This document shows positions 19,162-46,678 of a stretch of DNA of 64,000 bases, in pieces. Both the position numbers and the translations under genes were made by a program. Under the pieces are notes generated by a model. The model ran no database searches. It was not told where the DNA came from and saw only the letters and a program-made list of their open reading frames with translations. Numbering within the stretch: position 1 is the stretch's first letter; the number at the start of each line of letters is the position of its first letter. The stretch is from Epilithonimonas zeae (GTDB lineage Bacteria; Bacteroidota; Bacteroidia; Flavobacteriales; Weeksellaceae), in NCBI RefSeq assembly GCF_900141765.1, contig NZ_FSRK01000001.1, forward strand, positions 2,356,001 through 2,420,000, in the 5' to 3' direction.

Positions 19162-21699
19162 TTATTTTTCTGTGGAAACTTCACTTTCCGGTGCACCCAG
19201 ATAAGTAGGCTGTAAACCTCCTGTGTTAATCAGAATTTTTTCCAGCACGATTCCCGGTTCGAGTACTCTGAATCGCAACGTATGTTTCCCGGGTTGAGCA
19301 ATCTGGTGTTTTGTTGTAGACTTGATGATATGTTCAGACTGCCATCTTCCCAATTCACCTTTGTAGTGACCATTGAAATTGACAATCTGCGGGGTTCCGC
19401 CATCAAAGGAAATCTCATAACGCAAACCTTTATTATGATTGAAATTCAAAGTTGGGGCTAATAATAACTGGACTTCAAACTCACCTTTTGATTCAAAATT
19501 TACGTCGTACTCCAGATAAAGATTTTCATCAGCTTTCGGATAAGCATTTTGCGGAAAAGTCGTCACAGCGGATTTAGTTTTCCCGAAATCCGGAATCACT
19601 TCCCAATGGATTCGGTCTGAATTGCCAATTCTTGCAAAATTTTCAGCTTCTATGGAAACATAACCGTTTTTCTCTTGAAATACTTTTTCTTTCGGAACTT
19701 CAGACTCAGAAACACGGGTAACTTCAGGCATTATATTTTCTTTTCCGTCAAACCAGGCTTTGTAACCTATCTTCATCTGGTCCATCATATGCTGCCATTT
19801 TCCACCGGCAATGACATTATTATACTGATTATCGAGATAAGCATTTCTCTGAAAACATTCTTTGACTTTATCCGCATAGACATTAGCTTCAACATCTTTT
19901 TTAGCTGCCAATTCTTTGTTTTTTGCCACTGCGTAGTACATTTCATACAAATTGCTGCACGCATCAATCGGATATAATATCAGCTGAAAGTATGCGTCCT
20001 GATATTCTGCCGGAATCTTCTCTTTCAAACGTAAAGCTTCTAATGCCAAAGTTCTGTAATCATTTAAAACCGTTTCAAATTCATTATAATTTTGAAGGCT
20101 GTAAGTTTTCCAGTCTAATGTTTCTGGCGTTACACGGCGGTTATATTTTGAATAAAGATTAATCATTCCTGCAATTTTTTTGGCATATTTTTCACCAAAT
20201 TGCTGCGCCGCCCATTTTTCGGTATATTCTAAAAGATTTTTTGAATTGAATTGTTTCGGATTCCAGGCCATTTCCAGGAAAAAGCTGATTGGAAATTCCA
20301 TCGGCTTCAAATCTCCGACATTGACGACCCAAACCTTATCCACTTTATGTTCGTAAGAAAGATTCATCTGTTCCCAAACTCTCTGAATCGGACTGATATT
20401 AATCCATTTTGAATTTCTTGGTCCGCCCACGTAATCGAAGTGATAATACATCCCGTAACCGCCTTTGTGTAAAGGTTTTGAAAGGTCCGGAAGTTTTCTC
20501 ACATTTCCCCAGTTGTCATCACAAAACAATAAAATAACGTCGTCCGGAACGCGCATTCCTTTGTCGTAATAATCCTGAACTTCTTTGTACAAAGCCCAAA
20601 CCTGAGGCGTTTTCTCCGCTTTTTTTCCTGTTACGTCAGCAATAATTTTTCGCTGGTCTTTCACGATTTTTTCAAGTAAGGAAATATTAGTTCCCTCTCC
20701 CATCGCTTCATCGCCGTCGCCGCGCATTCCTACTGTGACTAATTTCTCCCAGTTTTTGCTTCTTTCGAGCCCTAATTTCCAGAATTCCTGCAAAACTTTC
20801 TCATTTTTCGAATAATCCCAGACATTCGGAAGATTATTCTTCTTGATGTATCTGTGCCAATCGGTTTGAGCCTGAGCCATCGGTTCGTGGTGCGAAGTTC
20901 CCATCACAATTCCCATTTCGCTGGCTAAAGGTCCGTTCAAAACGTCATCATCATAAAACGCTTTTCCCCACATTGCAGGCCAGATGTAATTGCCTTTCAT
21001 TCGCAAAATCAACTCAAAAACTTTTTCGTAAAATTTAGAATTGATTCCTCCAAAAGTTGCTCTTGCCCAGCCTCCGAGCGAAGGTTCTTCATCATTCAGG
21101 AAAATGCCGCGATATTCTACCGCCGGTTCTCCGTCTGTGTAAATTCCTTTTTTAAAGTATAGATTTTCTTTTTTCTCAACCGGAACATCCGCCCAGTAAT
21201 ACCAAGGTGAAACCCCGATTTGCTGCGACATTTCGTAAATTCCGTAAATTGTTCCGCGTTTGTCGCTTCCTGCAATTACAATCGCTTCGGAAACGCCGGG
21301 AAACGGATTGCTGATATTTTGAATGATAAATTTTTCATTCTTTCCTTTGATTGAAGTTCCATCAATTTTTTTAGCTTTAATTAAAGCATCAATGGTCTTG
21401 CTTTTCCCGGCCTCACCAATAATGATGAGCATTCCATTCGCCCCGGAATTTTGGGAAATAAGAGTAGGCTGAACCCCTGTTACTTTTTGAAAATCCGATT
21501 GAAGATTCGCAACCGCACGAAGAATTCCTTTATCCGAATCGCTATCCGAAAACAGCATCAAACCTAAATTGTGCTCTTTCAACACAACCGAGTTTTCCGT
21601 TTTAGTAAAAGAAATAAAAGGGTCGGCGGCTTTTACAATCGTTGTAAAAACCAACGTTATCAAAAGAGAAAAATAGTTAAAAATCGTCTTCATAATCAA
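19162..21699 (-). CDS. GH115 alpha-glucuronidase, copy A
   Basis: This 845-residue secreted enzyme matches the GH115 family, which removes (4-O-methyl)-glucuronic acid from internal positions of xylan. The N terminus MIMKTIFNYFSLLITLVFTTIVKAA is a signal peptide. Diagnostic stretches shared with copy B at 33166 are DKRGTIYGIYEMSQQIGVSPWYYWADVP, in parts such as GTIYGIYEMS and SPWYYWADVP; RGIFLNDEEPSLGGWA; MGTSHHEPMAQAQ; DDNWGNVRKLP; and WNPKQF. A C-terminal beta domain (about 660-840) follows the catalytic core. It is the last gene of its run, with a strong terminator downstream. Two diverged copies suggest different substrate contexts. Confidence 0.92.
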   Translation of the reverse strand: MIMKTIFNYFSLLITLVFTTIVKAADPFISFTKTENSVVLKEHNLGLMLFSDSDSDKGILRAVANLQSDFQKVTGVQPTLISQNSGANGMLIIIGEAGKSKTIDALIKAKKIDGTSIKGKNEKFIIQNISNPFPGVSEAIVIAGSDKRGTIYGIYEMSQQIGVSPWYYWADVPVEKKENLYFKKGIYTDGEPAVEYRGIFLNDEEPSLGGWARATFGGINSKFYEKVFELILRMKGNYIWPAMWGKAFYDDDVLNGPLASEMGIVMGTSHHEPMAQAQTDWHRYIKKNNLPNVWDYSKNEKVLQEFWKLGLERSKNWEKLVTVGMRGDGDEAMGEGTNISLLEKIVKDQRKIIADVTGKKAEKTPQVWALYKEVQDYYDKGMRVPDDVILLFCDDNWGNVRKLPDLSKPLHKGGYGMYYHFDYVGGPRNSKWINISPIQRVWEQMNLSYEHKVDKVWVVNVGDLKPMEFPISFFLEMAWNPKQFNSKNLLEYTEKWAAQQFGEKYAKKIAGMINLYSKYNRRVTPETLDWKTYSLQNYNEFETVLNDYRTLALEALRLKEKIPAEYQDAYFQLILYPIDACSNLYEMYYAVAKNKELAAKKDVEANVYADKVKECFQRNAYLDNQYNNVIAGGKWQHMMDQMKIGYKAWFDGKENIMPEVTRVSESEVPKEKVFQEKNGYVSIEAENFARIGNSDRIHWEVIPDFGKTKSAVTTFPQNAYPKADENLYLEYDVNFESKGEFEVQLLLAPTLNFNHNKGLRYEISFDGGTPQIVNFNGHYKGELGRWQSEHIIKSTTKHQIAQPGKHTLRFRVLEPGIVLEKILINTGGLQPTYLGAPESEVSTEK

Positions 21700-21734
21700 T
21701 ATTTTATGAGTATTTTATTTTAATATATATTGCG

Positions 21735-23624
21735 CTACCAGTCATCCGTTCTGAATGGCGACGCCAGCAAACCTTCTTTATTTTGCAGGTTGGCATCTTC
21801 GGGATTATTGCTCCACGCATATCGCACGGCAACCGGATTTTTGATTTCCTTGCTGGTTACAATGACTGTATTCCCTTTAATTTTCGCATCAGCCCAGACA
21901 AATTTTTTGTCGCTTCCGGCAATTGCAAAATGTTTCAGATTTCCTGTTTTACTTTGAAGGCCACTTCCAACATTGTCAAACGAAAGGATGATATCTGAAT
22001 TTTCCACCTTCATCGATTTGAAAACAGGACCACCGCTTACCAATTTTTCACCATACAACAATTTTCGTGCAGCCAGGAATAGACGTTTTGCCATATTTTT
22101 TTTATTGAGGGGGTGAATGTCATTCCATTCTCCAATATCATAATTGACGCTCATTGCCGTGTACGGAACAGTCTGTGACGTTTTAAACTGAGCCTCACGA
22201 ATTCCAGCCCATCCGCTTGGCGCATTCGGGTCGTTTGTTTTCTCCATAAAATTGGGCAGCTGAACCAATAAAAACGGCATCTGATTCCATTGAAATACTT
22301 CCCGCCAATTTTCGATAAGATTTTTCAGCAAACCTGCATAATCTTCGGATTGACCGGCATTGCTTTCGCCCTGATACCAGATAGCTCCCCGGACTTTGTA
22401 ATCCCGAATCGGATAAATCATCCCGTTATACAATCCGGAAGGCGTGCTTCTCAGGTTTTTCAGTTTCGATTTATATTCTTCATCTTTGCTCGTATCTCTT
22501 CCGATGTTATATTTCCATTCGCCCGTCAAATCAACGGTAAAGCCATCTCCAACAATTTTGTAAGGTTTATCAGCAACAAATTCTCCGTTTCCGAAATTGG
22601 AAGTCAGCTGAATGGCAATCGTATTTTTTCCCTGTTTTAAAATTCCGCCCGGAATATCATATTTTCTTGGTGGATAAGTGTATGAAGTAGAACCAACGAA
22701 TTTTCCATTCACAAAAACCGAATCACTGTCCACCATTACTCCCAGATATAATCGGGTAAATTTCCCATCCATTGACGCAGGAAGTTCAAAGTTTTTCCGG
22801 AACCAGACCGTTCCTTTTGTGCGGATTCCATTATCTTTCCATTTTCCGGGAACTTTTGCCTTTTCCCAATTCCCGTCATTAAAATCCTTTTGATTCCAAA
22901 GGTTTCTTCCCTGATCCAGTTTTGAAGAATTGAGTACTGACAATGCCTGTTTATCAATGATTTCATCAGGGAAATTCTTAAGATATTCCTGACTGACCCA
23001 ACTCTGAATTAACGAACCACCTAAACTGGAAACCAGCATTCCCTGCGGAATTTTGCTGTGTTCATACGCTTCTACCGCATAGAAATACGCAAAGGCCGTC
23101 CAATTCATTACTTCCGAAGCGGTTCCGGTAAACCATTTTCCGCCGGATGCTATATTTTCCCGCACAGATTCAACAGTATTCTGAGTAGGAACTTTGAAGT
23201 AGCGGATTTTATTAAAATCAGAAACATTAATCTCCGGAAAACGGTCTGTTAAACGGGCAATAGGCGTTTCCATATTAGACTGTCCGGAAGCGAGCCAGAC
23301 ATCCCCCACCAGAATATCCCGAATCGTAATTTCGTTAATTTCCATCACAAATGGCCCTCCTGCTTTCTGTGGTTTCAATTGGACAGACCATTTTCCGTTT
23401 TTGTCCGGTGATGTATTGTAGGTTTCATTTCGGAATTTGATGGTAATATTTTCACCATTATCTGCCCAACCCCAAATTTTAAGCTCGACATCACGTTGTA
23501 AAACCATCTTATCACTTACCAAATCGGGAAGTTTTATTTTCCCGAAAGACAATTGATGGCTAAGAACAATCATCAAAAAGACAATTTTAAAAATCGTTGA
23601 GAATTTGAAATTTCTGGGTTCCAT
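21735..23624 (-). CDS. Sialate O-acetylesterase-type (SASA) acetyl esterase
   Basis: This 629-residue secreted SGNH esterase carries the block I motif LASGQSNMETP (catalytic Ser) and a late NDIHPLNKKNMAKRL with the Asp/His pair. Between them is a galactose-binding jelly-roll insertion (about 260-370, KVPGKWKDNG ... FVNGKFVGS), as in CE20-like and other SASA enzymes. In this setting it probably removes O-acetyl groups from xylan. True sialate esterase activity is unlikely, as no sialic acid genes are present. It is packed between GH97 and GH115. Confidence 0.85.
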   Translation of the reverse strand: MEPRNFKFSTIFKIVFLMIVLSHQLSFGKIKLPDLVSDKMVLQRDVELKIWGWADNGENITIKFRNETYNTSPDKNGKWSVQLKPQKAGGPFVMEINEITIRDILVGDVWLASGQSNMETPIARLTDRFPEINVSDFNKIRYFKVPTQNTVESVRENIASGGKWFTGTASEVMNWTAFAYFYAVEAYEHSKIPQGMLVSSLGGSLIQSWVSQEYLKNFPDEIIDKQALSVLNSSKLDQGRNLWNQKDFNDGNWEKAKVPGKWKDNGIRTKGTVWFRKNFELPASMDGKFTRLYLGVMVDSDSVFVNGKFVGSTSYTYPPRKYDIPGGILKQGKNTIAIQLTSNFGNGEFVADKPYKIVGDGFTVDLTGEWKYNIGRDTSKDEEYKSKLKNLRSTPSGLYNGMIYPIRDYKVRGAIWYQGESNAGQSEDYAGLLKNLIENWREVFQWNQMPFLLVQLPNFMEKTNDPNAPSGWAGIREAQFKTSQTVPYTAMSVNYDIGEWNDIHPLNKKNMAKRLFLAARKLLYGEKLVSGGPVFKSMKVENSDIILSFDNVGSGLQSKTGNLKHFAIAGSDKKFVWADAKIKGNTVIVTSKEIKNPVAVRYAWSNNPEDANLQNKEGLLASPFRTDDW

Positions 23625-23654: not shown

Positions 23655-25595
23655 TTAATGAATTACAAATCCGCCTTTGGATTGAATTTCTATTTTGAGT
23701 TCTCCGTTTTTGCCAACAGTAATTGTTTTTTCAGAAGTCTCCCCTTTCGAATCATCATTGATGAATCTAACCGACTTTCCGGCAAGCATCGGAAGTTTTA
23801 AAGTAAGCTTCTGAACAGCATTTTCAGCGTTCACACCGGCAACAAACCATTGATTCTGATGTCTTCTGGCAATCACGGAATATTTCCCGGGATATCCGTC
23901 GATGAACACTGTTTCGTCCCAAAGCGTCGGAACTTCTTTCATAAAATCGAGCTGGAACTTCGGTGCGTCGCTCAGGTTATTCGGCATTATACCAAACATC
24001 TGAACCGGATTTTGAAACAGAACCGCCGTTGCCAACTGGAAACCATCTGTTGTGTATCTTTTATTTTTATCCTTGTTGGATTTTGTCAAATATTTGTTGA
24101 GGAAAGTTCCGCCAAACTCCATACTTCCGACCGTATTTCTGATGAATGGGTGCAAAGTCGCAAAAAAGGCTTCCTGTCTGCGAACGTCCTCAGAAAAATA
24201 CAGCATTTCTGAAGCTAAAACCGCTTCACTTCCGGCATAATTCGGATACATTACTTCCCAGCCTCTCGGCAAAGTAGCTCCGTGGAAAATAATTTTTAAT
24301 CCAAAATCATTGGCATCGGAAAGAATATCTTCGTAAAGGCGCATCGTTTCCTGCTTGTCACCACCAAAGAAATCGACTTTCAGACCTTTTATACCGATAT
24401 CTTTCAGCCATTTCATTTCTTTTTTTCGTTCGATGGAAGAGCTCATTTTATTTCTCGGTCCCATCGGCGCGTCATTCGCAGCACCATTGGAATTATACCA
24501 AAGCAATACCCCAACATTTTTGGATTTCGCATACTGAATGAGGTCTTTCATTCGTTCTTTTCCGATATTTTTGTCCCAAAGCGCATCAATCAAAATGTAT
24601 TCATAACCGAGTTTTGATGCTAAATCGATAAAGAGACTCTGGTCTTCATAATTCATACTGTTGTCCTGCCACAAAATCCAGCTCCAGGTCGATTTTCCGA
24701 AAGTGTATTTTTGTGAGGGTTCATACATCGGTTCTAATACATCAAAAGGAATTGTCGTTTCAACAATCGGTTTCAAAGAATCGCCAATCGTAATGGTTCT
24801 CCAAGGTGTTTTTCCGGGAAGTGAAATGGCAGCTCCGGAACTTCCGAAACCATTGTTTTCTGCCATATTCGGATAAGCAACCCGGTAAAGTTTTTTTTCT
24901 GAAGTTGTATCCAAATGAGAAGCGCAGTACAAACTGTTCACTCCTGTTTCGGACAATAAAATCCAGCCGTCGTTTCCAATATGAAACAGTCCAGGGAAAA
25001 CGTAACCATAATCGGCTTTTGTTCCTAATTCCGCATCAGCTTTGTAACCGCTTTCATAGCTTGGGGCGGTTCTGGCAAAACCTGTCATCGGCTTCATCAT
25101 CGGAGAAAGGAAAGTTGTGGTTTGAGACGGAAATCTGTAACCTGTAATTTCCGATTGTACAATTGCGCTCAAATGGTCTTTCATCGGCTGAATCTCATAT
25201 CTGAAAGCGACATTATTATCGCTCACCTGAAATTCAATTCCGATATTGAAGTTATCTGCATTGGTAAAATTGACTATCAGAGTATTAGCTGTATAACTGA
25301 CTTGTGATTTTTTGATTTTTTCGTTCGTATAATTTTTAGAAACCTTATCTTTTTTGCTGTCAATGAATTTTAAATTTTTAGAAAAATCAGATTCATTGGT
25401 GATTAAGCCCAACGGAGATTTATCAAGCATTGTTTTCCCTTGAAAAGTAACATTATAAAGCGCTTTTCCGTTTTCTGAAAAGACATTCAGTTTTAATTTT
25501 TCGTCAGGACTGGAGATTTCTGCAACCTGTGCAAAAACAGTATTCATAATCAGAATACTAAAGGCGAGTGATAGTTTTAAAAAAAGTTTAATCAT
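23655..25595 (-). CDS. GH97 glycosidase (probable retaining alpha-galactosidase type)
   Basis: A 646-residue secreted enzyme with signal peptide MIKLFLKLSLAFSILIMNTVFAQ, an N-terminal beta-sandwich (about 25-290), a (beta/alpha)8 barrel (about 300-560) and a C-terminal beta domain. The barrel has GLKVDFFGGDKQ, with an Asp where retaining GH97 alpha-galactosidases have their nucleophile; the inverting alpha-glucosidase branch lacks it. It could remove alpha-D-galactose or beta-L-arabinopyranose caps from xylan side chains. Choice between these activities is inference. Confidence 0.85.
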   Translation of the reverse strand: MIKLFLKLSLAFSILIMNTVFAQVAEISSPDEKLKLNVFSENGKALYNVTFQGKTMLDKSPLGLITNESDFSKNLKFIDSKKDKVSKNYTNEKIKKSQVSYTANTLIVNFTNADNFNIGIEFQVSDNNVAFRYEIQPMKDHLSAIVQSEITGYRFPSQTTTFLSPMMKPMTGFARTAPSYESGYKADAELGTKADYGYVFPGLFHIGNDGWILLSETGVNSLYCASHLDTTSEKKLYRVAYPNMAENNGFGSSGAAISLPGKTPWRTITIGDSLKPIVETTIPFDVLEPMYEPSQKYTFGKSTWSWILWQDNSMNYEDQSLFIDLASKLGYEYILIDALWDKNIGKERMKDLIQYAKSKNVGVLLWYNSNGAANDAPMGPRNKMSSSIERKKEMKWLKDIGIKGLKVDFFGGDKQETMRLYEDILSDANDFGLKIIFHGATLPRGWEVMYPNYAGSEAVLASEMLYFSEDVRRQEAFFATLHPFIRNTVGSMEFGGTFLNKYLTKSNKDKNKRYTTDGFQLATAVLFQNPVQMFGIMPNNLSDAPKFQLDFMKEVPTLWDETVFIDGYPGKYSVIARRHQNQWFVAGVNAENAVQKLTLKLPMLAGKSVRFINDDSKGETSEKTITVGKNGELKIEIQSKGGFVIH

Positions 25596-25597: not shown

Positions 25598-26965
25598 TTA
25601 ATTATTTTCAAGAAAAGTCCAATAATCGAAAAACATTATATCTTTTGCCGCTTTTCCATTACATACAAAATATACATCGTGAACACCGGTAATTTTTTCC
25701 TTAACCTCGGCTTTCACCGTTTCCCAACGATCGTCTCCACCAGTCAACGGAACTTTTACCGTGGCGATAATCGGTCCGCTTACACTGTCCAGATGAACGT
25801 CCATCGTAACATCGCTATTATGTGTAGTCCCAACTTTGGCCGAAAATGTTGATGCTCCTTTTTTGCCGAAATCCACATTTTTGACACTGGTGTAAGCGCC
25901 ACTTTTTTTAGCTTTGATGAAGACGCCTGCTTCTTTGTTCTGATAAGATTTTACATTTTCAGACCACGCAATCATTTCTGCCTGATTAAAAGCATAAGGA
26001 TTAACGGTTGCAATGGCTTTGGTAATGCCATTGGTCATTTTGATGGGTGAAATAGAACCGTCTTTATTAAAATTAAGTTCCTCAACACTTACCGACCTTG
26101 TAAAACCACTTCCTCCCGGCAAAGCGCCGTTGTGATAAAAGAAATAGGATTTTCCTCTGAAATCAACAATTCCGGGATGATTGGTAAAAGATTTCCCTTC
26201 GGTTGGCATTACAATTCCGCCGTATTTCCACGGTCCCTGTGCACTTTTGCTGGTTGAATATCCGATGAATTCAGGGAGCGGACCGCCCGGCCAGAACAGA
26301 TAATACAGATTTTTTCTTTTGTACAGCCAAGGCCCTTCCTCGTATTTTGTGGGTCTTTCCGGGTTTTCTTTTCCATCCCTTTTTCCGAAAGATTCTGCGG
26401 TCATTGGCACTTCCACAATATCGCCGGAATAGGAAATCATATCCTGATTGAGCTTAACCATTTTAAGTTTCGGATTTCCCCAGTACATATAGGCTTGACC
26501 GTCATCATCAATGAAAACCGTCGGGTCAATATCGCCCCATTCGCTCTGTACCAAAGGTTTTCCAAGCGGGTCGTGAAATGGTCCAAACGGACTGTCACCT
26601 ACCGCAACACCAATTGCTCCTTTGTTGTTGGTTTTGGACCACATCGGAACATACATAAAGAATTTGCCGTTTCTTTCCACGCATTGCGCTGCCCAGGCAT
26701 CTCGTTTTGCCCAGTCGAAATCTTTATAGCTCAGAATGCTTCCGTGGTCGGTCCAGTTCACCATATCGTTGGTGGAATAGACCTTCCAGTCGTTCATTAC
26801 AAACCAGGTGGAATCGTCCTCATCGTGAGTGGTGTAGACATAAAGCCTGTCGTTATACACCATCGGCGCCGGGTCTGCCGTATAATTGGTCTGAATAATG
26901 GGATTCTGAGAAAATAATATTCCCGAATATGCTATTAAACAGAGATTGAGTATTGTTTTTTTCAT
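25598..26965 (-). CDS. GH43 arabinoxylan arabinofuranosidase-like with CBM6, copy 1
   Basis: This secreted enzyme starts at the ATG at 26965 ([20 protein letters not shown]); eight upstream codons back to a GTG at 26989 are unlikely. The five-bladed propeller has the three GH43 acidic residues in [10 protein letters not shown] (Asp), [13 protein letters not shown] (Asp) and [10 protein letters not shown] (Glu). The C-terminal 130 residues resemble CBM6 (AIAWSEN ... [11 protein letters not shown]). It is a paralogue of the enzymes at 27085 and 30633 and lies 2 bp from GH97. Expected role: removing arabinose from xylan backbone. Confidence 0.88.
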
Positions 26966-27084
26966 ATTTAACTTTTTGATTTTGAACACTAAGTGCGCAA
27001 AGTTTTTTTATAAATATTTCTTTAGTTTCACAAAGCCGCTAACGTTTGTATAAGCTGTGTGGCTGTATTGTTTGGTTTGGTAAA

Positions 27085-28584
27085 TCAGGTTTCCGATATT
27101 GTTATACAGACCATTTTAACCACCCCGTCAAAAATTCTTTGAATTTTCGCCCCCCCTCCAAAGGAGGGGAATTTTATTCTATTTCTTTTTAAACTCCAGT
27201 GGTCGAAATTGAAAAGCACTCTTCCGGCTGTAATGTTTTTACCTTTAAAGACAAAATAAACATCGTGAACACCAGAAACTGATTCTGAAATTTTGGATGT
27301 CAAGGTTTTAAATTCTTCCCAACCTCCGGTTCTCGGAACTTCAATCTCGGTAATTTTATTTCCGTCCACTCTATCCAATCTCACTTCTAAAATTCCTCCG
27401 TCAACACCTGCAGCAATTGACGCTGAAAATTCAGAGGGACCTTTTTCAAAATCTACCGAACGGACTTTGATATAACCTCCCACTCTGGTATCAGAAACAT
27501 AAACACCTGTCTTTTTGTTTTCGGAAGTGCTGCATTTCTCTGACCAGGCTATTGTTTCCGCTTCGTTTCTTTTGTAGGGATTGAGTGTTGCAACGGGATT
27601 TACGCCTTCTTTGGTCATAGAAATTTTTGGAATGCTTCCATCCGGATTGTATTTGAATTCTTCAATAGACGTTGACCTTCCGTAACTTCCTGCGCCTGGC
27701 AATAATCCTGTGTGATAGAACAGGTAGGATTTGCCTTTAAAATCGATAATTCCGCCGTGGTTGGTAAAACTGTTGGTAGGTTGGCCGGTCATTATTTTTC
27801 CCTGATATTTCCACGGTCCGGTCGGTGAATCGCTTATCGAATAAGACAGACATTCGGTTCGGTCGGTCATTCCGGCATACATCATATAATATTGCTTGTT
27901 GCGTTTGTAGAACCAAGGTCCCTCAACAAAAACATCTTTAAACTGTTCCTGTTTCTGCAAAACCTCATCGCTTCTTCCGGGACGTCTCAATCCGCCAAAA
28001 GCTTCTACCGATTGTGGAATTTCGGTGATTTTTCCATCATAGGAAACCATATCTTTGTTAAGCTTCACGTAAAATAATTTGCTGTTCCCCCAATATAAAT
28101 AGGCTTGTCCGTCATCATCAATAAAAACCGTCGGATCGATATTATCCCAGGTTCCCGTTGTCACCAATGGTTTTCCGAGTGCATCTTTGAAAGGACCTGT
28201 AGGACTGTCGGATACCGCAACGCCAATCGCCATATTGTTATCAACGGTCTGAACACAGATGTACCAATAGAATTTGCCGTTACGTTCAATGCATTGTGCC
28301 GCCCAGGCTCTGTCACGGGCCCAGCTGAAAGATTCCAGTGAAAGCGGAGAACCGTGGTCGGTCCAGTTGACCATATCATCAGAAGAATACACTCTCCATT
28401 TAGTCATATAATAAAAATCATAGCCGGGAACATCATCTCCGGTGTAGACATACATCTTGTTTTTGTACACCATCGGCGCAGGGTCCGGTGTAAAATGGGT
28501 TTGGATTACGGGATTTTGGGCAGAAATATAAATTCCTGCCAGCAAAAATGATAAGGCGATATATTTTGATTTAAATTGAATCAT
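27085..28584 (-). CDS. GH43 arabinoxylan arabinofuranosidase-like with CBM6, copy 2, extended C terminus
   Basis: A 499-residue secreted GH43 with signal peptide MIQFKSKYIALSFLLAGIYISAQ. Acidic residues occur in [23 protein letters not shown] and FVEGPWFYKR. A CBM6-like domain follows (about 345-465). The natural end should be near FNFDHWSLKR, as in copies 1 and 3 (FDYWTF, FDWWKFN), but the frame continues for about 32 residues (IKFPSFGGGAKIQR ... CITISET) encoded by a G/C-rich repeat and the spacer. The tail is therefore probably non-functional. It follows GH27 by 6 bp. A 95-bp gap separates it from copy 1. Confidence 0.87.
   Translation of the reverse strand: MIQFKSKYIALSFLLAGIYISAQNPVIQTHFTPDPAPMVYKNKMYVYTGDDVPGYDFYYMTKWRVYSSDDMVNWTDHGSPLSLESFSWARDRAWAAQCIERNGKFYWYICVQTVDNNMAIGVAVSDSPTGPFKDALGKPLVTTGTWDNIDPTVFIDDDGQAYLYWGNSKLFYVKLNKDMVSYDGKITEIPQSVEAFGGLRRPGRSDEVLQKQEQFKDVFVEGPWFYKRNKQYYMMYAGMTDRTECLSYSISDSPTGPWKYQGKIMTGQPTNSFTNHGGIIDFKGKSYLFYHTGLLPGAGSYGRSTSIEEFKYNPDGSIPKISMTKEGVNPVATLNPYKRNEAETIAWSEKCSTSENKKTGVYVSDTRVGGYIKVRSVDFEKGPSEFSASIAAGVDGGILEVRLDRVDGNKITEIEVPRTGGWEEFKTLTSKISESVSGVHDVYFVFKGKNITAGRVLFNFDHWSLKRNRIKFPSFGGGAKIQRIFDGVVKMVCITISET
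27112..27173. repeat. Dispersed repeat with CCCCTCC-TTT-GGAGGGG hairpin, overlapping a GH43 3' end
   Basis: The stretch ACCACCCCGTCAAAAATTC ... CCCCTCCAAAGGAGGGG has a perfect 7-bp hairpin around AAA and resembles a repeat I associate with Chryseobacterium intergenic regions. It lies inside the 3' end of the GH43 frame at 27085-28584 and encodes the odd tail of that protein. Repeat identity is from memory and not checked by search. Confidence 0.5.
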
Positions 28585-30632: not shown

Positions 30633-32018
30633 TTAATTAAATTTCCACCAATCAAAATAGAAAAGGTCTTTTTCTCCCTTAAAAACAAAATATAAATCGT
30701 GAACGCCTTTGATAGTTTTCACAGGAGTGTTGATGGTTTTAAAAATATCACCTTCCGCTTTTCCTGTCACTTTTACAGTTCCTAAAACTGGTCCGTCTAG
30801 TGCATCTGTGCGGATTTCAATCGTTCCGCCGTACATTGAAGCAACAGAAACGTCTATGGATTTCGTTCCTTTGGAAAAATCCACACCCTGAACTTTTAGA
30901 TAATCTCCGTTGTTGATAGATGAAACCACCAATCGGTCGGTAATTTTTTTGCCGGTATCGTAAGGATTATTTCTTTCCCACTCGGTCTTTTTTTCTGTTT
31001 TTAAGCCTTCACTATAAGCAATCGTCTCCGCTTCTACCTTCTCATAAGGGTTTAATGTTGCAATTCTTTTTACGCCTTCAGGATTCCAAAAAGGCAATTT
31101 TTGAATGGTACCATCGGTATTGTACATCAATTCGCTCACACAAATGGAACGGCGCTCGTAATGTTTGCTTATGGTTTGTTTTCCAAGATTGTAATTGAAA
31201 CCAAAAACGTAAGATTTTCCTTTGTAGTCAATAATTCCCGGATGATTTCCGTTGGAACGTTTGTCGCTGTCCATAATCATTCCTTTGTATTCCCACGGAC
31301 CGGTTGCCGATTTGCCCATTGCATAGCCAATTCCTTCCGGACAGCACGTTGAGGCATACGCCATATAATAATTCCCGTTGCGTTTCCACGCCCAAGGACC
31401 TTCCTGATAATGAAATGGGTCTGGCGAACCTTTGACTTTGGCAATCGAAGGATCTTTCACGATTGGTCCGTCAACAGAAATCATATCTTTATTAAGCTTT
31501 ACGTACCATAAATTGGGATTTCCCCAGTACAGATAAGCTTGTCCGTCATCATCAATGAGAACAGTCGGATCAATATCGTCACTCGAATTTTTCACAAGCG
31601 GTTTTCCGATTGGGTCTTTGAACGGACCATACGGACTGTCTGCTACCAAGACACCGATTCCTCTCTGTCCGGGCATCGGGCAATACATATAAAACTTGCC
31701 GTTTCTTTCTATGACTTGTGGAGCCCACGCTCCGTTTTCCGGGTCTGTCCATTTGAAATCTTTTAAGGAAGCCACAACGCCGTGGTCTGTCCAGTTGACC
31801 ATATCGGTCGAAGTGTACAACAGCCAGTCTTTCATTTTAAATCCGAACGCATCATCTTCGTCGTGACTGGTGTACAGAAAAACGGTGTCTTTGTAAACCA
31901 TTGGCGCAGGATCAGCCGTAAATTTGGTCTGAATGATGGGATTCTGGGCAGACAGCGAAAATCCTGTCAGCATCAACCCAATATTTAAAGTATATTTTAA
32001 AACTGTTTTCTTAATCAT
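30633..32018 (-). CDS. GH43 arabinoxylan arabinofuranosidase-like with CBM6, copy 3
   Basis: A 461-residue secreted GH43 with signal MIKKTVLKYTLNIGLMLTGFSLSAQ. The acidic triad appears in [23 protein letters not shown] and YQEGPWAWKR, and a CBM6-like domain occupies about 325-460. It shares the N-terminal signature NPIIQT ... YTSHDEDDA with copy 1. It lies between a fourth GH43 (32037) and GH27 in the same run of genes. The exact bond cut (O-2, O-3 or doubly substituted xylose) cannot be told from sequence by eye. Confidence 0.88.
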   Translation of the reverse strand: MIKKTVLKYTLNIGLMLTGFSLSAQNPIIQTKFTADPAPMVYKDTVFLYTSHDEDDAFGFKMKDWLLYTSTDMVNWTDHGVVASLKDFKWTDPENGAWAPQVIERNGKFYMYCPMPGQRGIGVLVADSPYGPFKDPIGKPLVKNSSDDIDPTVLIDDDGQAYLYWGNPNLWYVKLNKDMISVDGPIVKDPSIAKVKGSPDPFHYQEGPWAWKRNGNYYMAYASTCCPEGIGYAMGKSATGPWEYKGMIMDSDKRSNGNHPGIIDYKGKSYVFGFNYNLGKQTISKHYERRSICVSELMYNTDGTIQKLPFWNPEGVKRIATLNPYEKVEAETIAYSEGLKTEKKTEWERNNPYDTGKKITDRLVVSSINNGDYLKVQGVDFSKGTKSIDVSVASMYGGTIEIRTDALDGPVLGTVKVTGKAEGDIFKTINTPVKTIKGVHDLYFVFKGEKDLFYFDWWKFN

Positions 32019-38233: not shown

Positions 38234-40168
<1,935 letters not shown>

Positions 40169-40487: not shown

Positions 40488-42101
40488 TTATTCCGAACTT
40501 TTATTCACTCTGAAAAAATCAACATCTACAAAACCTCCCAGATTTTTGGTAGCATAATTGAAAATCGCAAACTTTGAACCCATAAAAAATCTCCGGTAAT
40601 CGAAAATCATTTTGTAATCTTTTGCCATTTCGGTCCAGTTTTTTTGGTCAGTGCTGTAATAAAAATCGGCCAAATCTTTTCCGAGATTAAAATCGGCATC
40701 AATTTTAAAATAAACTTTGTCCGAGTTTAATGGGATTCTCTTTTTTTCATCTTTTTTAACACCTGTAACCGCCTTCGTCTTATTATCTAAACTGACTTCA
40801 TTGGTTGAAAAAACAATAAACTTCTTACCATTTTCCATTACCACAGACAAAATCCCGGAATCACCGTTGAACGCACTGAAACCTGCAACATCACCGTCTT
40901 TCATCCCCTTCACATCCAGAGCAACAATGCCACTGGATTTCGGACCTTCCATTCTTTGCGTTAGTGTATTGGGAGCAAGGTAGAGATTATCAACGACTCT
41001 ATTCGTTTTTAACCTTAAAAAGCCTTTCCTGTCGGATAAAGACCAAGCTGAATTGACAGGATTATGATTCCACTGCCACTGGATTTTCATTTTTTTGTCG
41101 GAGAATTCATCACTTTCTACCAAATGATTTTTTGGTTTAAATGGCGAAAGTGGAATTTCACCTGTCAACGGCACTTTTCCGTTGTCACCCAAAATGGGCA
41201 AGTCATTTTCCCATTTCACAGGGAGCAAAATAGGAACCCTTCCTACTCCATTTCTGTCTTGAAAAATCAGGGAATACCAATTTCCGTTTTTATCGTCAAT
41301 CAAAGCACCTTGTCCGGCGTAGGAAAATCCAAGAAAATTGTCTTCAAGAATGACTTTTTTCTCATAAGGTCCCGTTACTCTATCAGCTCTGTAAACTTCC
41401 TGACGACGTTTTCCGCCTCTCGGCCAGGAAATCATCATCATATAATATTTTCCGTCTTTTTTAATGATTTGGTTACCTTCCAAAAGTCCGGTTTCCGATT
41501 CATCTTTCTGAAAAACTTCCGTTCCATCCTGATTTCCGATAATGGTTTTAAAATCCGGACTCAGCTCAAAAACTTTGTTGGAAGTAAAAACGTAAACTCT
41601 ATCATCATCATCAAAAAGCAAAGATGCATCGTGAAAATGTCTGGTTCTCGTGATGAGCTTCCAATTGCCTTTTTCAGGATTGTCGGTAACATAAAAATAG
41701 GATTTGAAAGGCTCATCATTCGGGGAAAACAGAACGTAATATTTTCCTTTGTGATAACGAATGGACGACGCCCATTGCCCACGTCCGTAAACGCTTCCGT
41801 CTATCAAATCGTATTTTGAATTATCATTTAGTGTATCAAAAACATAGCTCGACATTTCCCAATGGACCAAATCTTTGGAATGCATTACCGGAGCGCCCGG
41901 CATCAGGTGCATAGTGGTGCTTATCAGGTAAAAATCGTCGCCATTTCTGGTGATTGACAAATCCGGTGCATCCGCCCAGATAATCGGGTTTCTGAATGCC
42001 GTTGTCTCCTGTTTTTTCACAGGATTTACCTGGGCTGAAAGAAGATTCAGCCCGATACATCCCAAAAAAGAAACTATATAAAATGGTTGATTAATTTTCA
42101 C
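40488..42101 (-). CDS. GH43 alpha-L-arabinofuranosidase (subfamily 12-like) with C-terminal beta-sandwich
   Basis: A 537-residue secreted enzyme (signal MKINQPFYIVSFLGCIGLNLLSAQ). The GH43 propeller (about 35-325) has WADAPDLSITRNGDDFYLIS, HDASLLFDDDDRVYVF and GLLEGNQIIKKDGKYYM with the Asp/Asp/Glu set. A beta-xylosidase C2-type sandwich follows (about 330-530). The pattern fits GH43_12 arabinofuranosidases that act on doubly substituted xylose in arabinoxylan; the subfamily is my estimate. It is separated from CE1 by the repeat-rich region. Confidence 0.88.
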   Translation of the reverse strand: MKINQPFYIVSFLGCIGLNLLSAQVNPVKKQETTAFRNPIIWADAPDLSITRNGDDFYLISTTMHLMPGAPVMHSKDLVHWEMSSYVFDTLNDNSKYDLIDGSVYGRGQWASSIRYHKGKYYVLFSPNDEPFKSYFYVTDNPEKGNWKLITRTRHFHDASLLFDDDDRVYVFTSNKVFELSPDFKTIIGNQDGTEVFQKDESETGLLEGNQIIKKDGKYYMMMISWPRGGKRRQEVYRADRVTGPYEKKVILEDNFLGFSYAGQGALIDDKNGNWYSLIFQDRNGVGRVPILLPVKWENDLPILGDNGKVPLTGEIPLSPFKPKNHLVESDEFSDKKMKIQWQWNHNPVNSAWSLSDRKGFLRLKTNRVVDNLYLAPNTLTQRMEGPKSSGIVALDVKGMKDGDVAGFSAFNGDSGILSVVMENGKKFIVFSTNEVSLDNKTKAVTGVKKDEKKRIPLNSDKVYFKIDADFNLGKDLADFYYSTDQKNWTEMAKDYKMIFDYRRFFMGSKFAIFNYATKNLGGFVDVDFFRVNKSSE

Positions 42102-42314: not shown

Positions 42315-44033
42315 CTAATTTGGCACAATATCGTTTGACGAAGTACTGTACAATCCGATTAAGCTTCCTGTGAAACCGCCTGCAACATCTGTGGAAAGAA
42401 TATCGCCGGAAACCGGACCTCCCAAATTTTTAAAATTCTTGCCATCTGTTGCGTAATTAAAGCTGATGTTGTCTTTCTCTCCTGTAACCTGAAATTTAAT
42501 GGTTTTACCTAAAGAAATTTTCTCGCTGGCTACTAATGTTGACGCCCCTTTTTCGGTTCTTTCCAAAACAATGTAGAAATCTTTGTCTTTCTTCGTAATT
42601 CCGAAAACGTAATTGAATGTTTCGCTTTGGTAGAGCGTAATTCCAGCCAATTCTTTTTCAGATTTTGGTTTATAATCTAAGGTTACGGAAGTTTCGAAAT
42701 CTTCGTGCTGTAATCTGTGGAACAAAGATGAGATCGGAGCCAATGCTTTGATATTCGTTTCCATAGGATTCACTTTTACACCCGTTTTCGTAGTCGTAAT
42801 GAAGTTTTCACGCGGTCCGCGCATCGCAATCCAACGGAAATCGAGGTTTTTATCGGTCAGTTTATCATTATACGTGAAATTCCCGTTCGGAAAGAATCCG
42901 TTTTGTCCAGTTTGATTCTGAACACCTTGTGGCATTTTCAATTTCGGCTTCATTGGAACCAAGCCATTTTGAAACACAGGATAAGTTCCGCTCCAGTCAA
43001 CCGGAAGAATAAAGGTTTCTCTACCGTGATTTACACGTCCTTTTTCGTTGGGACGAATGGCTAAAAACACACCGTACCACTGTCCGTTACGGCCTTCTAC
43101 CAAATCGGCGTGACCCGCCCAATCCACTTTTTCCTTTCTGTCTCTAGGAAAATATCTCTGCGTCAAAATCGGGTTATTTTTAGCGGGAACGAATGGTCCT
43201 TTCGGAGAATCTGCCATAAAAATAACCTCGCTGTGGTTGCCTCCGGTTCCGCCTTCTGCGCACATCAGGTAATATTTTCCTTTGTATTTGTATAAATGCG
43301 GACCTTCAATCCAAATCGGTTTTTGAGAAAGGTCGACTCCACCGTTTACAATAATTCTGTCTGAACCTGCGATAACCTGATCTTTTTCCAAATCGTAATC
43401 CCACATTTTGATGACGCGGTGACCTTGATACTGTTCTGTTCCTTTTGGCGGTGCATCGTTATGAACGATGTATGCTTTGCCATCATCATCAAAGAAAATG
43501 GCAGGATCGATCCCGTCGAAATTCAGTTTTTGCACTTCACTCCAGCCTTTTGCCGGGTCTTTGGTTTTTACGACCATATTACCGACTCCGCCCGCGATTT
43601 GGGTGGTAATCATATAAAAAGTGTCGTTGTACTTGTTGTATTTGATGTCCGGTGCATAAATTCCCTGAGAAACGACACCTTTTTCTACTTTAAGTTGTGA
43701 AGGCCTGTCGAGAACGTGCCCAATCTGCTTCCAATTGACCAAATCTTTAGAGGTGAAAATCGGAACGCCCGGAAACATTGAGAAAGAAGAATTAACCAAG
43801 TAATAATCTTCTCCTTTTTTGGTGATACTTGGGTCAGGATAGCAGCCCTGGAGAATCGGAGAATAGAATTCGTCCGGTTTCAGAGGGTTGTCATTATATA
43901 TTTTATCGTTTCCTCTGTATTGAAAATCGGTAAAAATCTGTGCTTGCAAACTGGTTACAGAAAGTAGAGCCAGAGTAGCAAAAATGCTGGTTTTGTTTCT
44001 TAGGAAATTTGGATTCATTGTTATCTTTTTCAT
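42315..44033 (-). CDS. GH43 xylan beta-xylosidase (subfamily 1-like)
   Basis: A 572-residue secreted enzyme; an internal Met6 (44018) gives MNPNFLRNKTSIFATLALLS, an equally good start. The propeller has LQGCYPDPSITKKGEDYYLV (Asp), FDGIDPAIFFDDDGKAYI (Asp) and WIEGPHLYKYKGKYYLMCAEGG (Glu, the EGPH variant typical of GH43_1 beta-xylosidases). A C-terminal concanavalin-like domain (about 375-565) follows. It should release xylose from xylo-oligosaccharides together with GH3. Confidence 0.9.
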   Translation of the reverse strand: MKKITMNPNFLRNKTSIFATLALLSVTSLQAQIFTDFQYRGNDKIYNDNPLKPDEFYSPILQGCYPDPSITKKGEDYYLVNSSFSMFPGVPIFTSKDLVNWKQIGHVLDRPSQLKVEKGVVSQGIYAPDIKYNKYNDTFYMITTQIAGGVGNMVVKTKDPAKGWSEVQKLNFDGIDPAIFFDDDGKAYIVHNDAPPKGTEQYQGHRVIKMWDYDLEKDQVIAGSDRIIVNGGVDLSQKPIWIEGPHLYKYKGKYYLMCAEGGTGGNHSEVIFMADSPKGPFVPAKNNPILTQRYFPRDRKEKVDWAGHADLVEGRNGQWYGVFLAIRPNEKGRVNHGRETFILPVDWSGTYPVFQNGLVPMKPKLKMPQGVQNQTGQNGFFPNGNFTYNDKLTDKNLDFRWIAMRGPRENFITTTKTGVKVNPMETNIKALAPISSLFHRLQHEDFETSVTLDYKPKSEKELAGITLYQSETFNYVFGITKKDKDFYIVLERTEKGASTLVASEKISLGKTIKFQVTGEKDNISFNYATDGKNFKNLGGPVSGDILSTDVAGGFTGSLIGLYSTSSNDIVPN

Positions 44034-44212: not shown

Positions 44213-46678
44213 TCAATTTTTTATTTTCAGTTTGTATGTTTTTCCTGATTCTGTTGGGAAATCATACATCACAGATTCTTTTATTTCGACAAGGTTTAAT
44301 TTTGCTTCACTGGAAATTATTGGCTTTTTAATCTCAGGTGTTTCGAAAAAGTGATTCGGGTTTTTGCCTTCCGCTTTTTTGAGTTTTGTTTTTCCTGATA
44401 ATTCCATTTTGTTGGGAATTCTGACTCTGCAGTTTCCGCCTAAATTGGATTTTATGGTGATTTCCTTCGCTTTATTATTTTCCCAGACAATGCTGATTTC
44501 AAAATCGCCGTAGGTTTTCAGCCCGGAAATCTTTCCATTTTTCCATTCATCCGGAAGTGCGGGAAGAATGTCGATAAACCCGTTCTGAGTTTGCAAAAGC
44601 ATCTCGATAATTCCCGAGGTACAGCCAAAATTTCCGTCAATCTGGAACGGCGGATGCGCATCAAAAAGATTGGGATACGTTCCGCCTTTTTTGCCCCAAC
44701 CGTCTTTTTCTACCAAAGTTAATTGGTCTTTGATTAATTTGTTGGCGTGATTTCCGTCTAATAATTTCGCCCAAAGATTCACTTTCCAGCCCATACTCCA
44801 GCCTGTGGAAACGTCGCCACGATGCAGTAAAACCGTTTTGGAAGCGTCCAGCAATTCGGGCGTGGTGAAAGGATTGATTTGGTTGGACGGAAATAATCCG
44901 TAAAGATGCGAGACGTGTCTGTGATTATCTTTCGGATTGTCCCAGTCTTCTGCCCATTCCTGCAATTGACCATACCTTCCGATTTTCATCGGTGGTAATT
45001 TTGAAATAATATTGTTCCAAACCGGGATTTTATCTGAGTCTATATTAAGAATTTCGGCTGCATTCTTTGTCTTGGTAAAAAGGTCAAAGATCAGCTGATT
45101 ATCCATCGTATTTCCGCTTGCCAAAGCACTTCCCTGATGTCCGTTTGGAATATTCTCGGGAGACATTGACGGACTTACGACCAGCCAATGGTGCGTCGGT
45201 TCTTCTATCAGAAAATCTTCATAGAATTGAGCGGCAGATTTTAGAATCGGATAAATGGATTGAAGATAATTTTTATCTCCACTGTATAAATATTTTTCCC
45301 AAAGATGCTGGGAAAGCCAGGCACTGCCCAATGGCCACATTCCTGCGTTGGCAAAGTCTATGACTCCTGTGATTCTCCAGATATCCGTATTGTGATGTGC
45401 GACCCAACCACGGCTTTTGTACATCGTTTTTGCCGTTTCTTTTCCGGATTCGCTCAAGTCTTTGACCATCTGAATCAGCGGTTCGTGCATCTCGGAAAGG
45501 TTGGTTTTTTCCGCCGGCCAATAGTTCATTTCCGTGTTGATGTTGATGGTGTATTTGCTGTCCCAAGCGGGTTTGTTGGAATTATTCCAGATTCCCTGAA
45601 GGTTCGCCGGCTGACCACCAGGTTGTGAAGAGGAAATCAAAAGATAACGACCAAACTGGTAATATAAAGCCACAAGTTCAGGGTCGTAATTGGTTGCGAA
45701 ATTTTTAATCCGAACATCGATTGGATTTTTTGAAGCTTCGGAAGTTCCTAAATCCAAATCAACTCTTTTGAAATATTTTTGATAAAAAGCCAGATGGTTT
45801 TTCAGTAAAGTATTGAAACTTTTTTGTTCTGAGGCTTCGATGTATTTTTTACTTTTTAAAACTTCATCTGTGTTCAAAGTTTTGTAATCTGTAAAGTTGG
45901 TCGCAATGGAAATCAGAATCGTGACTTCATTGGCATTGCTTACTGAAATTTTGTTTTCTGAAACATCTGTTTTGCCACCTTTGTTGAGAATTTTTGCGAT
46001 GGCATTGAATTTAACCTGACCCTGAACGCCGTCTAAAGTTGAAGACAATCCGTCAATCTGCAATATGTTGGAATCAATGGCTCTGACGCTTTTATTAAGT
46101 TCGTTGTTGAAATTGGCGGAGAAACTCAGCGCATTTTTTTTGTCTGAACTTAGTTTAATCACAATTACATTATCCGGAATTGAAGCGAAAACTTCTCTTT
46201 TGAAATTGATTCCGTTGGCGGTAAAAGTCGTTGTTGTGATTGCTTTTTCTATGTCTAATTCTCTGTAATAATTTTTAACATCATTATTATTTTTAAAGTC
46301 AAGAATTAACTCACCAATATTCTGAAACGCTGAACCGTGAAGAGTCTTTGCTGTTAAACCTTTATCGGTTAGGATTTGCGCTCTTTTGTAATTGCCGTTG
46401 AATAAATAATATCTTATTGAATCTAAAACTTTCGGGCCATCCGGATTATCGTTTCGGGAAGGTCCGCCTGACCAAAAAGTAGCTTCGTTCAGCTGAAGTT
46501 TTTCCTGAGAAGGATCGCCAAAAACCATCGCTGCTAATCTTCCGTTTCCAACCGGTAACGCTTCCACCCACTGTTTGGCAGGTTTGTCATACCAAAGCTT
46601 ATATTTTCCTCCTTTTTGAGCAAAGGAAAATCCGCTAAGGAAAAGACAGAAGGTTAATATGGAAAATTTGAAGTTCAT
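44213..46678 (-). CDS. GH95 alpha-L-fucosidase / alpha-L-galactosidase
   Basis: An 821-residue secreted GH95 (signal MNFKFSILTFCLFLSGFSFAQ). The N-terminal beta domain opens with YDKPAKQWVEALPVGNGRL and NEATFWSGGPSRND. The barrel has GIWNNSNKPAWDSKYTININ followed by TEMNYWPAE (the Asn pair that activates water in GH95), VVSPSMSPEN and QIDGNFGCTSGI (the general-acid/Asp region). It lies 4 bp behind the uronate transporter. No fucose catabolic genes are nearby, so cleavage of alpha-L-galactose from cereal xylan side chains is as likely as defucosylation. Confidence 0.9.
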   Translation of the reverse strand: MNFKFSILTFCLFLSGFSFAQKGGKYKLWYDKPAKQWVEALPVGNGRLAAMVFGDPSQEKLQLNEATFWSGGPSRNDNPDGPKVLDSIRYYLFNGNYKRAQILTDKGLTAKTLHGSAFQNIGELILDFKNNNDVKNYYRELDIEKAITTTTFTANGINFKREVFASIPDNVIVIKLSSDKKNALSFSANFNNELNKSVRAIDSNILQIDGLSSTLDGVQGQVKFNAIAKILNKGGKTDVSENKISVSNANEVTILISIATNFTDYKTLNTDEVLKSKKYIEASEQKSFNTLLKNHLAFYQKYFKRVDLDLGTSEASKNPIDVRIKNFATNYDPELVALYYQFGRYLLISSSQPGGQPANLQGIWNNSNKPAWDSKYTININTEMNYWPAEKTNLSEMHEPLIQMVKDLSESGKETAKTMYKSRGWVAHHNTDIWRITGVIDFANAGMWPLGSAWLSQHLWEKYLYSGDKNYLQSIYPILKSAAQFYEDFLIEEPTHHWLVVSPSMSPENIPNGHQGSALASGNTMDNQLIFDLFTKTKNAAEILNIDSDKIPVWNNIISKLPPMKIGRYGQLQEWAEDWDNPKDNHRHVSHLYGLFPSNQINPFTTPELLDASKTVLLHRGDVSTGWSMGWKVNLWAKLLDGNHANKLIKDQLTLVEKDGWGKKGGTYPNLFDAHPPFQIDGNFGCTSGIIEMLLQTQNGFIDILPALPDEWKNGKISGLKTYGDFEISIVWENNKAKEITIKSNLGGNCRVRIPNKMELSGKTKLKKAEGKNPNHFFETPEIKKPIISSEAKLNLVEIKESVMYDFPTESGKTYKLKIKN

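Follow-up and report, generated by a model that had tools for sequence, protein, structure and literature searches.

Among described systems, the closest to the locus reported here is PUL-XylL (BACOVA_03417-03450) of the well-studied gut bacterium Bacteroides ovatus, a polysaccharide utilization locus (PUL) whose enzyme activities have been reported on corn xylan. Its GH31 is a xylan-specific alpha-xylosidase, its GH97 acts on p-nitrophenyl-alpha-Gal (pNP-alpha-Gal), and its GH95 (BACOVA_03438; PDB 4UFC) is an alpha-L-galactosidase for whose specificity the authors suspected the +1 subsite (PMC4491172). Here, we analyze a 64,000-nucleotide stretch of the 4.08-Mb genome (G000) of Epilithonimonas zeae (C1:2356001-2420000; hereafter the window), in which an enzyme array at 19162-46678 forms part of a locus that is likely a PUL for glucuronoarabinoxylan (GAX) with heavy decoration and with acetyl and feruloyl esters. 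The host is an Epilithonimonas-like soil bacterium of a plant-associated type, and the locus probably includes removal of the rare sugar L-galactose by GH95.

An alpha-L-galactosidase, an alpha-xylosidase, and arabinofuranosidases work synergistically on corn-fibre GAX, and the same source lists two GH95s of strain LL1355 as L-galactosidases (PMC7176698). BT1010, from rhamnogalacturonan II (RG-II), is a second L-galactosidase in a family whose tested members are mostly fucosidases (PMC10154630). PUL 17 of Dysgonomonas mossii encodes the CE1-CE1 enzyme DmCE1B, and such fusions have also been attributed to Chryseobacterium (PMC8040265). Nudix-type pentose regulators of the NrtR family, BtAraR and BtXylR, have been described as a pair (PMC4666351). 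A GAX locus itself is of a known kind; no description of one in this lineage was found in the literature searched.

Results

Pfam scans covered 36 of the 38 window open reading frames (ORFs) of at least 150 aa, the other two being antisense ORFs inside GH115 and GH43 genes. Every gene in 19162-46678 lies on the minus strand, where the carbohydrate-active enzyme (CAZyme) genes from GH51 to GH95 make up a compact array (Table 1). The range encodes two GH115, GH97, GH27, GH31, GH95, six GH43, one SASA esterase, and one CE1-CE1 protein. All of these family calls lie above the curated cut-offs (the weakest, SASA, scores 58.6 bits where 24.8 are required), and chance matches need not be considered. 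A sequence-only reading of the range had named these same families, together with a GH51 that in fact lies outside it; of SASA esterases, the range has a single one, and a second is found left of the window.

The array was compared with PUL-XylL by matching 50 proteins of the window and its left-hand stretch (L112) to 100 kb around the L150 GH95 of genome G313. This genome, drawn from 99 genomes of the genus of L104, was taken as B. ovatus on account of a GH95 100% identical to 4UFC (797 aa); BACOVA numbers other than that of GH95 were assigned by family and order in the paper, not by sequence. The best matches were GH43_6 (67%), GH31 (64% over 815 aa), GH43_3 (62%), GH43_2 (56%), GH115b (55%), and GH43_5 (54%), followed by GH97 (51%), GH3 (49%), GH95 (47%), SASA2 (40%), CE1 (38% over 362 aa), and GH30 (30% over 382 aa). 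The GH31 partner in B. ovatus has 814 aa, and similarity to the BACOVA_03422-position protein is full-length.

Structural databases returned, for the SASA protein, 9h4u (553 bits), then 9ega (521) and 7kmm (374), the last of which we take to be XacXaeA of CE20. The top match of GH97 is 5xfm, presumably BT3661, at 800 bits and far ahead of 3a24 (133 bits). In the CE1-CE1 protein, the C-terminal half matches 7b5v best (348 bits; DmCE1B, as we assume) and the N-terminal half 1jjf (240 bits). The GH30 is nearest to 9rdg (193 bits) and 4ckq (183), with the glucuronoxylanase XynC (3gtn) at 151.

The genes adjoining the array at 46683-61848 and 3488-18476 belong with it functionally. They specify a SusC/SusD pair linked to the xylan enzymes and the catabolism of arabinose, xylose, and glucuronate; the xylulokinase-like FGGY kinase scores 316 bits with the XylB model, under its cut-off of 380. 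The cluster extends beyond the window to the left, into L112 (C1:2336001-2356000; 14 of 15 ORFs of at least 120 aa scanned), where the same strand carries GH127, the second SASA esterase, a GPH symporter, GH10, GH43, GH67, transaldolase, transketolase halves, galK, and galT. The whole locus, with galT (about 2339660) at its left end and the regulator (2417848) at its right, is about 78 kb long. Backbone endo-xylanases by family are GH30 and the GH10 left of the window. The genome has one GH95 and one GH31, both in this locus, two GH10, and, outside the cluster, two GH5. One GH5, with CBM6/35, lies about 37 kb left of the window (L116:1521-3251) and has as its top PDB match 9ku5, labelled putative beta-xylosidase GE32. 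Nothing for xylan was recognised in the 20 kb right of the window among the 9 of 20 ORFs scanned. Within the window, the last part (62001-64000) has a G+C content of just 23% and no ORF longer than 73 aa past the regulator. With dnaA some 10 kb past the right end of the window (L113:10053-11507), the locus may sit near the replication origin.

Enzyme-by-enzyme similarity to PUL-XylL, catabolic genes for glucuronate, xylose, arabinose, and D-galactose in the same cluster, and the placement here of the only GH31 together make GAX a strongly supported predicted target, with xyloglucan disfavoured. Heavy decoration of this GAX, as proposed in the sequence-only reading, is likewise strongly supported; "cereal-type" is an interpretation, as the sequence offers no means of telling cereal GAX from other grass or branched xylans. 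The comparison drawn there with gut Bacteroides is an analogy; the host here is a member of Weeksellaceae.

The GH95 catalytic domain is well recognised (PF22124, 596 bits), and N379, N381, and E508 are invariant across 30 rows of the alignment. The protein keeps Thr377, Asn379/Asn381, Glu508, and a loop D441-F442-A443-N444-A445-G446 (DFAxAG). 4ufc tops the sequence search (847 bits versus 684 for the Xanthomonas fucosidase) and is also the nearest solved fold to the AlphaFold2 (AF2) model (mean pLDDT 86.6, pTM 0.90), at 1.8 Å and 46% identity versus 2.7-3.2 Å and 40% for the fucosidase 7kmq. Thr377 occupies the position facing O6 of L-galactose (L-Gal). Its motif occurs in 94 of 96 rows and in XacAfc95; Thr therefore decides nothing and was dropped as a specificity mark. 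Close relatives of this GH95 are found in Epilithonimonas arachidiradicis (91% identity) and a Chryseobacterium (88%), which places the genome in Weeksellaceae. Of 246 genomes searched in the order, 33 have a GH95 match at E <= 1e-60; in 14 of these, counting the window's own, identity is 82% or more.

FucI and PF04909-type lactonases mark the known routes for L-fucose and L-galactose. Genome-wide Pfam searches found neither the FucI N-terminal domain (PF07881) nor GH29 (PF01120) nor PF04909, which we take to be the family of L-fucono- and L-galactonolactonases; a released L-sugar would thus have no recognised route here, whereas galK and galT provide one for D-galactose. The earlier remark that fucose genes are missing nearby is hence true of the entire genome for these models. 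FucI exceeded its cut-off in 12 of the 63 GH95-bearing genomes searched and in 0 of the 16 G-numbered ones, own included.

The residues that follow the HHNTDxW motif in GH95 are DG, DK, or DS in most rows and DF in 30 of 164 (three rows lack the motif). The window GH95 and BACOVA_03438 share GV-DFA-AG despite their different clades, and the F state requires at least 4 changes on the GH95 tree. Among 78 dereplicated loci of at least 12 kb, scored with the window and 7kmq left out, at least one class of xylan marker accompanied 7/7 F-type GH95s versus 18/71 others (p 1.8e-4, post hoc); two classes were present in 6/7 versus 10/71 and three in 3/7 versus 7/71 (p 0.041). In a later test, for which the prediction was written beforehand, 40 further stretches were fetched and 39 were long enough. 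Markers were found in 5/6 F-type stretches versus 10/33 others (p 0.024), and two classes in 4/6 versus 6/33 (p 0.028). This test was not wholly fresh, as the GH95s within L239, L244, L245, and L246 had been part of the 164-row set before, represented by short loci; minus these four, the counts are 4/5 versus 8/30 (p 0.038) and, for two classes, 3/5 versus 4/30 (p 0.044). Since non-F GH95s occur in xylan loci too, the loop is no necessary mark. An association with a GH31 neighbour alone (F-type 3/7 versus others 3/74, p 0.007) was listed among the rejected leads.

No hybrid two-component system (HTCS) was found among the 36 of 38 window ORFs and 14 of 15 L112 ORFs scanned; there are Nudix regulators instead. 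The one adjoining xylAB has a Nudix-like domain and a C-terminal winged helix. Upstream of its gene, the palindrome ATGATAANNTTATCAT (61980-61995) occurs exactly once in the 4.08-Mb genome. Counting the window, 14 of 15 loci have it without a mismatch, 13 of them with equal offset and G232 30 bp nearer by its start call; it is missing from L034, and the stretch L033 is too short to reach the position. This arrangement suggests repressor control. The one-mismatch site upstream of GH30 is present in three of the five genomes scored (the window's, G096, and G080, not G139 or G088). Operator-like sites in the window are near chance (3 versus 0.96 expected at two mismatches), the second site alone is not above it, and L112 has none. 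A repeat like GCTCCGTAGGAGC upstream of CE1 was rejected, being not above chance in the window.

The window was compared with 15 other loci, of which 13 come from Weeksellaceae G genomes and two are L033 and L034; the comparison extends over the parts that the fetched stretches contain. GH95, GH43_6, GH43_5, and CE1 occur together in all 15, and GH31 is absent from G139 only. GH115 (a) is 82-96% identical in the five relatives with a stretch long enough to include it (G096, G088, G080, G139, and G065) and 74% in G129, whose stretch is possibly cut; uxaC-kdgK-kdgA is missing from G232, G065, G005, G129, and L034. At 31-32 kb, nucleotide identity to G096, G080, G110, and G212 drops to 76-78%, having been about 92-94% before; no more than a quarter of each kilobase is alignable from 32 to 36 kb, and from 36 kb onward identity recovers to 86-92%. 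G005 can be aligned over the whole 31-36-kb region at about 81-85%. The GH43 at 30633-32018 (GH43_3) is a divergent allele with respect to those four relatives, and the GH43_4-GH115b cassette is found, among the 16 loci, in the window and G005 only. Compared with the four, segment 30633-35727 (GH43_3 allele, GH43_4, and GH115b) hence seems to have been inserted or replaced as a block, which makes the second GH115 an add-on. The SusC/SusD region (53-58 kb) is also divergent, at 72-81% to the same four genomes. As a side observation, the kdgA, kdgK, uxaC, SusD, and SusC proteins (47981-58101) are 68-89% identical to those of relatives, many neighbours reaching up to 98%. Extra genes, including one for a 652-aa protein, lie between GH27 and GH43_2 in L186, L188, and L190 (G110, G159, and G019); in G110 and G159 they also include a GH31-like gene (38% identity).

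Table 1. Genes and candidate regulatory sites of the window, by position
Feature	Coordinates	Strand	Basis and closest matches
Nudix AraR-like regulator	170..856	+	Pfam
SSF symporter, galM, araA, araD, araB (arabinose use)	3488..10587	-	
GH51, predicted alpha-L-arabinofuranosidase	10814..12811	-	Pfam
GH3	12883..15510	-	49% to PUL-XylL GH3
GH30, xylanase-like, with type IX secretion system (T9SS) sorting tail	15753..18476	-	Por_Secre_tail
Second operator-like site	18808..18823	.	One mismatch; upstream of GH30
GH115 (a), predicted alpha-glucuronidase	19162..21699	-	PF15979, 488 bits; GH115_C
SASA, predicted CE20-like acetyl esterase	21735..23624	-	PF03629 as two stretches with GH2_N-like insert
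GH97, predicted alpha-D-galactosidase and/or beta-L-arabinopyranosidase	23655..25595	-	Pfam
GH43 + CBM6	25598..26989	-	Pfam
GH43 + CBM6 (GH43_2)	27085..28584	-	Pfam; 56% to BACOVA_03436-position protein
GH27 with N-terminal NPCBM, alpha-galactosidase-like	28591..30615	-	Pfam
GH43 + CBM6 (GH43_3)	30633..32018	-	Pfam; 62% to BACOVA_03424-position protein
GH43 (GH43_4), optional cassette gene	32037..33188	-	Pfam
GH115 (b), optional cassette gene	33166..35727	-	Pfam; 55% to PUL-XylL GH115 after GH98 position
GH31, predicted xylan-type alpha-xylosidase	35737..38184	-	Pfam; 64%/815 aa to BACOVA_03422-position protein
CE1-CE1, predicted feruloyl/acetyl xylan esterase	38234..40162	-	Pfam, two esterase stretches
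GH43 + C2 (GH43_5)	40488..42101	-	Pfam; 54% to BACOVA_03417-position protein
GH43 + C2 (GH43_6)	42315..44033	-	Pfam; 67% to BACOVA_03421-position protein
GH95, putative alpha-L-galactosidase	44213..46678	-	Pfam; 4ufc best by sequence and fold
MFS transporter, probably hexuronate	46683..47981	-	Pfam; TIGR00893, 253 bits (cut-off 395)
KDPG aldolase (kdgA), KDG kinase (kdgK, PfkB), UxaC, D-mannonate oxidoreductase, UxuA (glucuronate catabolism)	47981..53176	-	
SusD-like, half of outer-membrane import pair	53262..55214	-	
SusC-like, other half of the pair	55225..58101	-	
Xylose isomerase (xylA) + xylulokinase-like FGGY kinase (xylB)	58181..61104	-	
Nudix/NrtR-type regulator, XylR-like	61123..61848	-	Pfam; best PDB 5bs6, BtAraR, 113 bits
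Candidate operator, palindrome ATGATAA-NN-TTATCAT	61980..61995	.	132 bp upstream of regulator gene

Discussion

On the basis of the families and their arrangement, sequence similarities, operator conservation, and the absences found with the Pfam models used, we infer activities, location, order of action, and regulation along the following lines. The secreted GH30 and the GH10 just left of the window would cut the backbone, and SusC/SusD would import the resulting oligosaccharides. The esterases (CE1-CE1 and two CE20-like) would strip ferulate and acetate, GH95 would remove terminal alpha-L-galactose and GH31 then the alpha-xylose beneath, GH97/GH27 would release D-galactose or L-arabinopyranose, GH43/GH51/GH127 arabinose, and GH115/GH67 (methyl)glucuronate. 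The cluster's own xylAB, araABD, uxaC-uxuAB-kdgKA, and galKT would take xylose, arabinose, glucuronate, and D-galactose into catabolism. L-galactose is probably unused, since no known route was found, and GH95 would uncap the chain rather than feed the cell. A Nudix XylR-like repressor probably restrains transcription from a single operator that precedes the repressor gene itself; we take the palindrome as the predicted operator of a putatively xylose-sensing XylR.

Given this locus, the window GH95 is probably an alpha-L-galactosidase. Several results weigh against this reading of the locus. Both GH95 trees, one of 96 rows (dereplicated at 80% from 164; FastTree) and one of 36 selected rows (IQ-TREE quick), place the window GH95 outside the BACOVA_03438 clade, in a 7-row clade of its own (support 100), which rules out a shared clade; the sequence-only proposal of an alpha-L-galactosidase is plausible. 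Another B. ovatus GH95 (L147), in whose 20 kb no xylan enzymes were recognised, is nearer to the query (50-51%) than BACOVA_03438 (47-48%). The AF2 model is poor at the active site (block means of 62 and 51 at 361-380 and of 69 at 431-440), and the O6-position Thr is also present in XacAfc95, a strict fucosidase (PMC8245568). The absence of L-fucose and L-galactose routes rests on three Pfam models. In the 100 kb compared, SusC is only 25-29% identical to B. ovatus proteins and SusD has no match at E 1e-8, and no GH98 was seen in the cluster. A rival reading is a GAX locus whose GH95 is an alpha-L-fucosidase, or dual, and trims fucose from mixed wall material (xyloglucan or arabinogalactan side chains), a reading that overlaps ours in everything except GH95. 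The preponderance of fucosidases among tested GH95s (PMC10154630), the -1 site Thr of XacAfc95 (PMC8245568), and the tree placement speak for it, and with neither route found, a missing fucose route counts equally little against fucose and L-galactose. We nonetheless consider it unlikely: the genome has no GH29 or FucI match, the nearest sequence and fold are those of the L-galactosidase 4ufc, and in 15 of the 16 loci, all but G139, GH95 stands among xylan genes that include a GH31 of PUL-XylL type.

A different polysaccharide was also weighed. GH31, GH95 as a fucosidase, GH97/GH27 as galactosidases, GH43 as arabinofuranosidase, and the CE20-like enzymes could act on xyloglucan side chains, and GH31, GH95, and the CE20 founder do occur together, next to genes for xylose isomerase and xylulokinase, in a xyloglucan locus of Xanthomonas (PMC8245568). 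Here, however, the cluster has GH115, GH67, GH10, GH30, and uronate genes and, among its scanned ORFs, no endo-xyloglucanase family (GH5_4, GH74, GH9, or GH12; GH9, GH12, and GH74 were not searched genome-wide). Its GH31 scores 1102 bits with the PUL-XylL protein (blastp) versus 506-542 with the xyloglucan enzymes 5jou and 7kmp (phmmer, other scoring), and Chryseobacterium has been reported without GH5_4 homologs or a xyloglucan locus (PMC11892949). GH31 similarity, the lack of an endo-xyloglucanase in the cluster, and the published lack of GH5_4 leave this reading extremely improbable, and it was set aside. Xylan side-chain structures differ in their distribution between grasses and dicots or hardwoods. 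A target in dicots or hardwoods, namely glucuronoxylan whose glucuronic acid side chains bear galactosyl or arabinopyranosyl caps, with GH97/GH27 removing those caps before GH115 acts and GH95 serving a minor or unknown decoration, would accommodate the two GH115, GH67, and a GH97 nearest to 5xfm; six GH43, GH51, GH127, CE1-CE1, and the PUL-XylL-type GH31 point instead to an arabinose- and ferulate-rich grass xylan and render the dicot alternative quite improbable.

Tentatively, and with more doubt than confidence, L-galactosidase activity may have evolved repeatedly in GH95 through the same loop change (DGAxWG to DFAxAG), each time within arabinoxylan loci. The window GH95 would then be a case outside the BACOVA_03438 clade, in a host that could not use the freed L-galactose and would leave it to neighbours. 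The loop association itself is limited by the choice of the loop column by eye after nine stretches, with only 3 phylogenetically independent pairs, and by the loosening of marker list and thresholds after a stricter clade-wise labelling. Those stricter labels, from 10-kb flanks, were weak (window clade 4/6, BACOVA_03438 clade 4/12, elsewhere 10/63) and gave 0 for the 20-kb stretch of BACOVA_03438 itself; they were set aside as weak and under-called. Five of the six later F-type rows carry a BACOVA_03438-like loop, are unplaced on the tree, and probably represent mostly one lineage, and the sixth (L239), though of a different lineage (that of L122 in the tree), was not blind, some of its neighbours having been seen earlier. 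Two further GH95 loci of B. ovatus G313, L149 and L151, contain GH43 relatives, one with GH31 (40%) and the other with GH67 and GH97; they are possibly further xylan loci with GH95.

The locus is common to Epilithonimonas- and Chryseobacterium-type genomes and predicts that some Weeksellaceae attack a hemicellulose that ranks among the most resistant. According to one study, Chryseobacterium responds to carbon additions only if these are simple (PMC11892949). The locus also offers a testable further L-galactosidase lineage and, for the unsolved question of how GH95 enzymes choose between L-Gal and L-Fuc, a candidate loop. It is a GAX locus that seems to be under a monosaccharide-sensing repressor, and its enzymes could serve corn fibre use.

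Of the known systems, the Xanthomonas xyloglucan locus resembles this one in GH31, GH95, a CE20-type esterase, and nearby xylA/xylB (PMC8245568) and differs in that no GH74 or GH35 was seen here, where GH115, GH43, GH10, GH30, and uronate genes are found instead. BtAraR (BT0354) and BtXylR (BT0791) belong to the same NrtR family as the two regulators of the window, which likewise stand beside xylAB or near ara genes; in the present locus, the gene for the regulator stands at the head of the GAX cluster, and operator and effector are predicted. PUL 17 of D. mossii has in common GH10, GH43, GH51, GH67, GH115, and the CE1-CE1 fusion, in a different architecture and with GH95 never mentioned in the main text of its description (PMC8040265). 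The likeness is one of description, with the PDB match 7b5v as the sole sequence-level link. PUL-XylL differs in bacterial family, gene order, clade of GH95, SusC/SusD, and a CE6-CE1 (PMC8040265) in place of CE1-CE1. No HTCS, GH98, or GH5_21 was seen here, and catabolic genes and Nudix regulators lie inside the cluster; the lack of an HTCS bars strict identity with PUL-XylL, with no claim that GAX PULs generally need one. PUL-XylL nevertheless shares homologous GH3, GH30, GH31, GH43 (four positions), GH95, GH97, GH115, CE1 domain, and SASA at 30-67% identity, and BACOVA_03438 resembles the window GH95 in sequence (47%), fold (1.8 Å), the Thr/Asn/Asn/Glu positions, and the DFAxAG loop.

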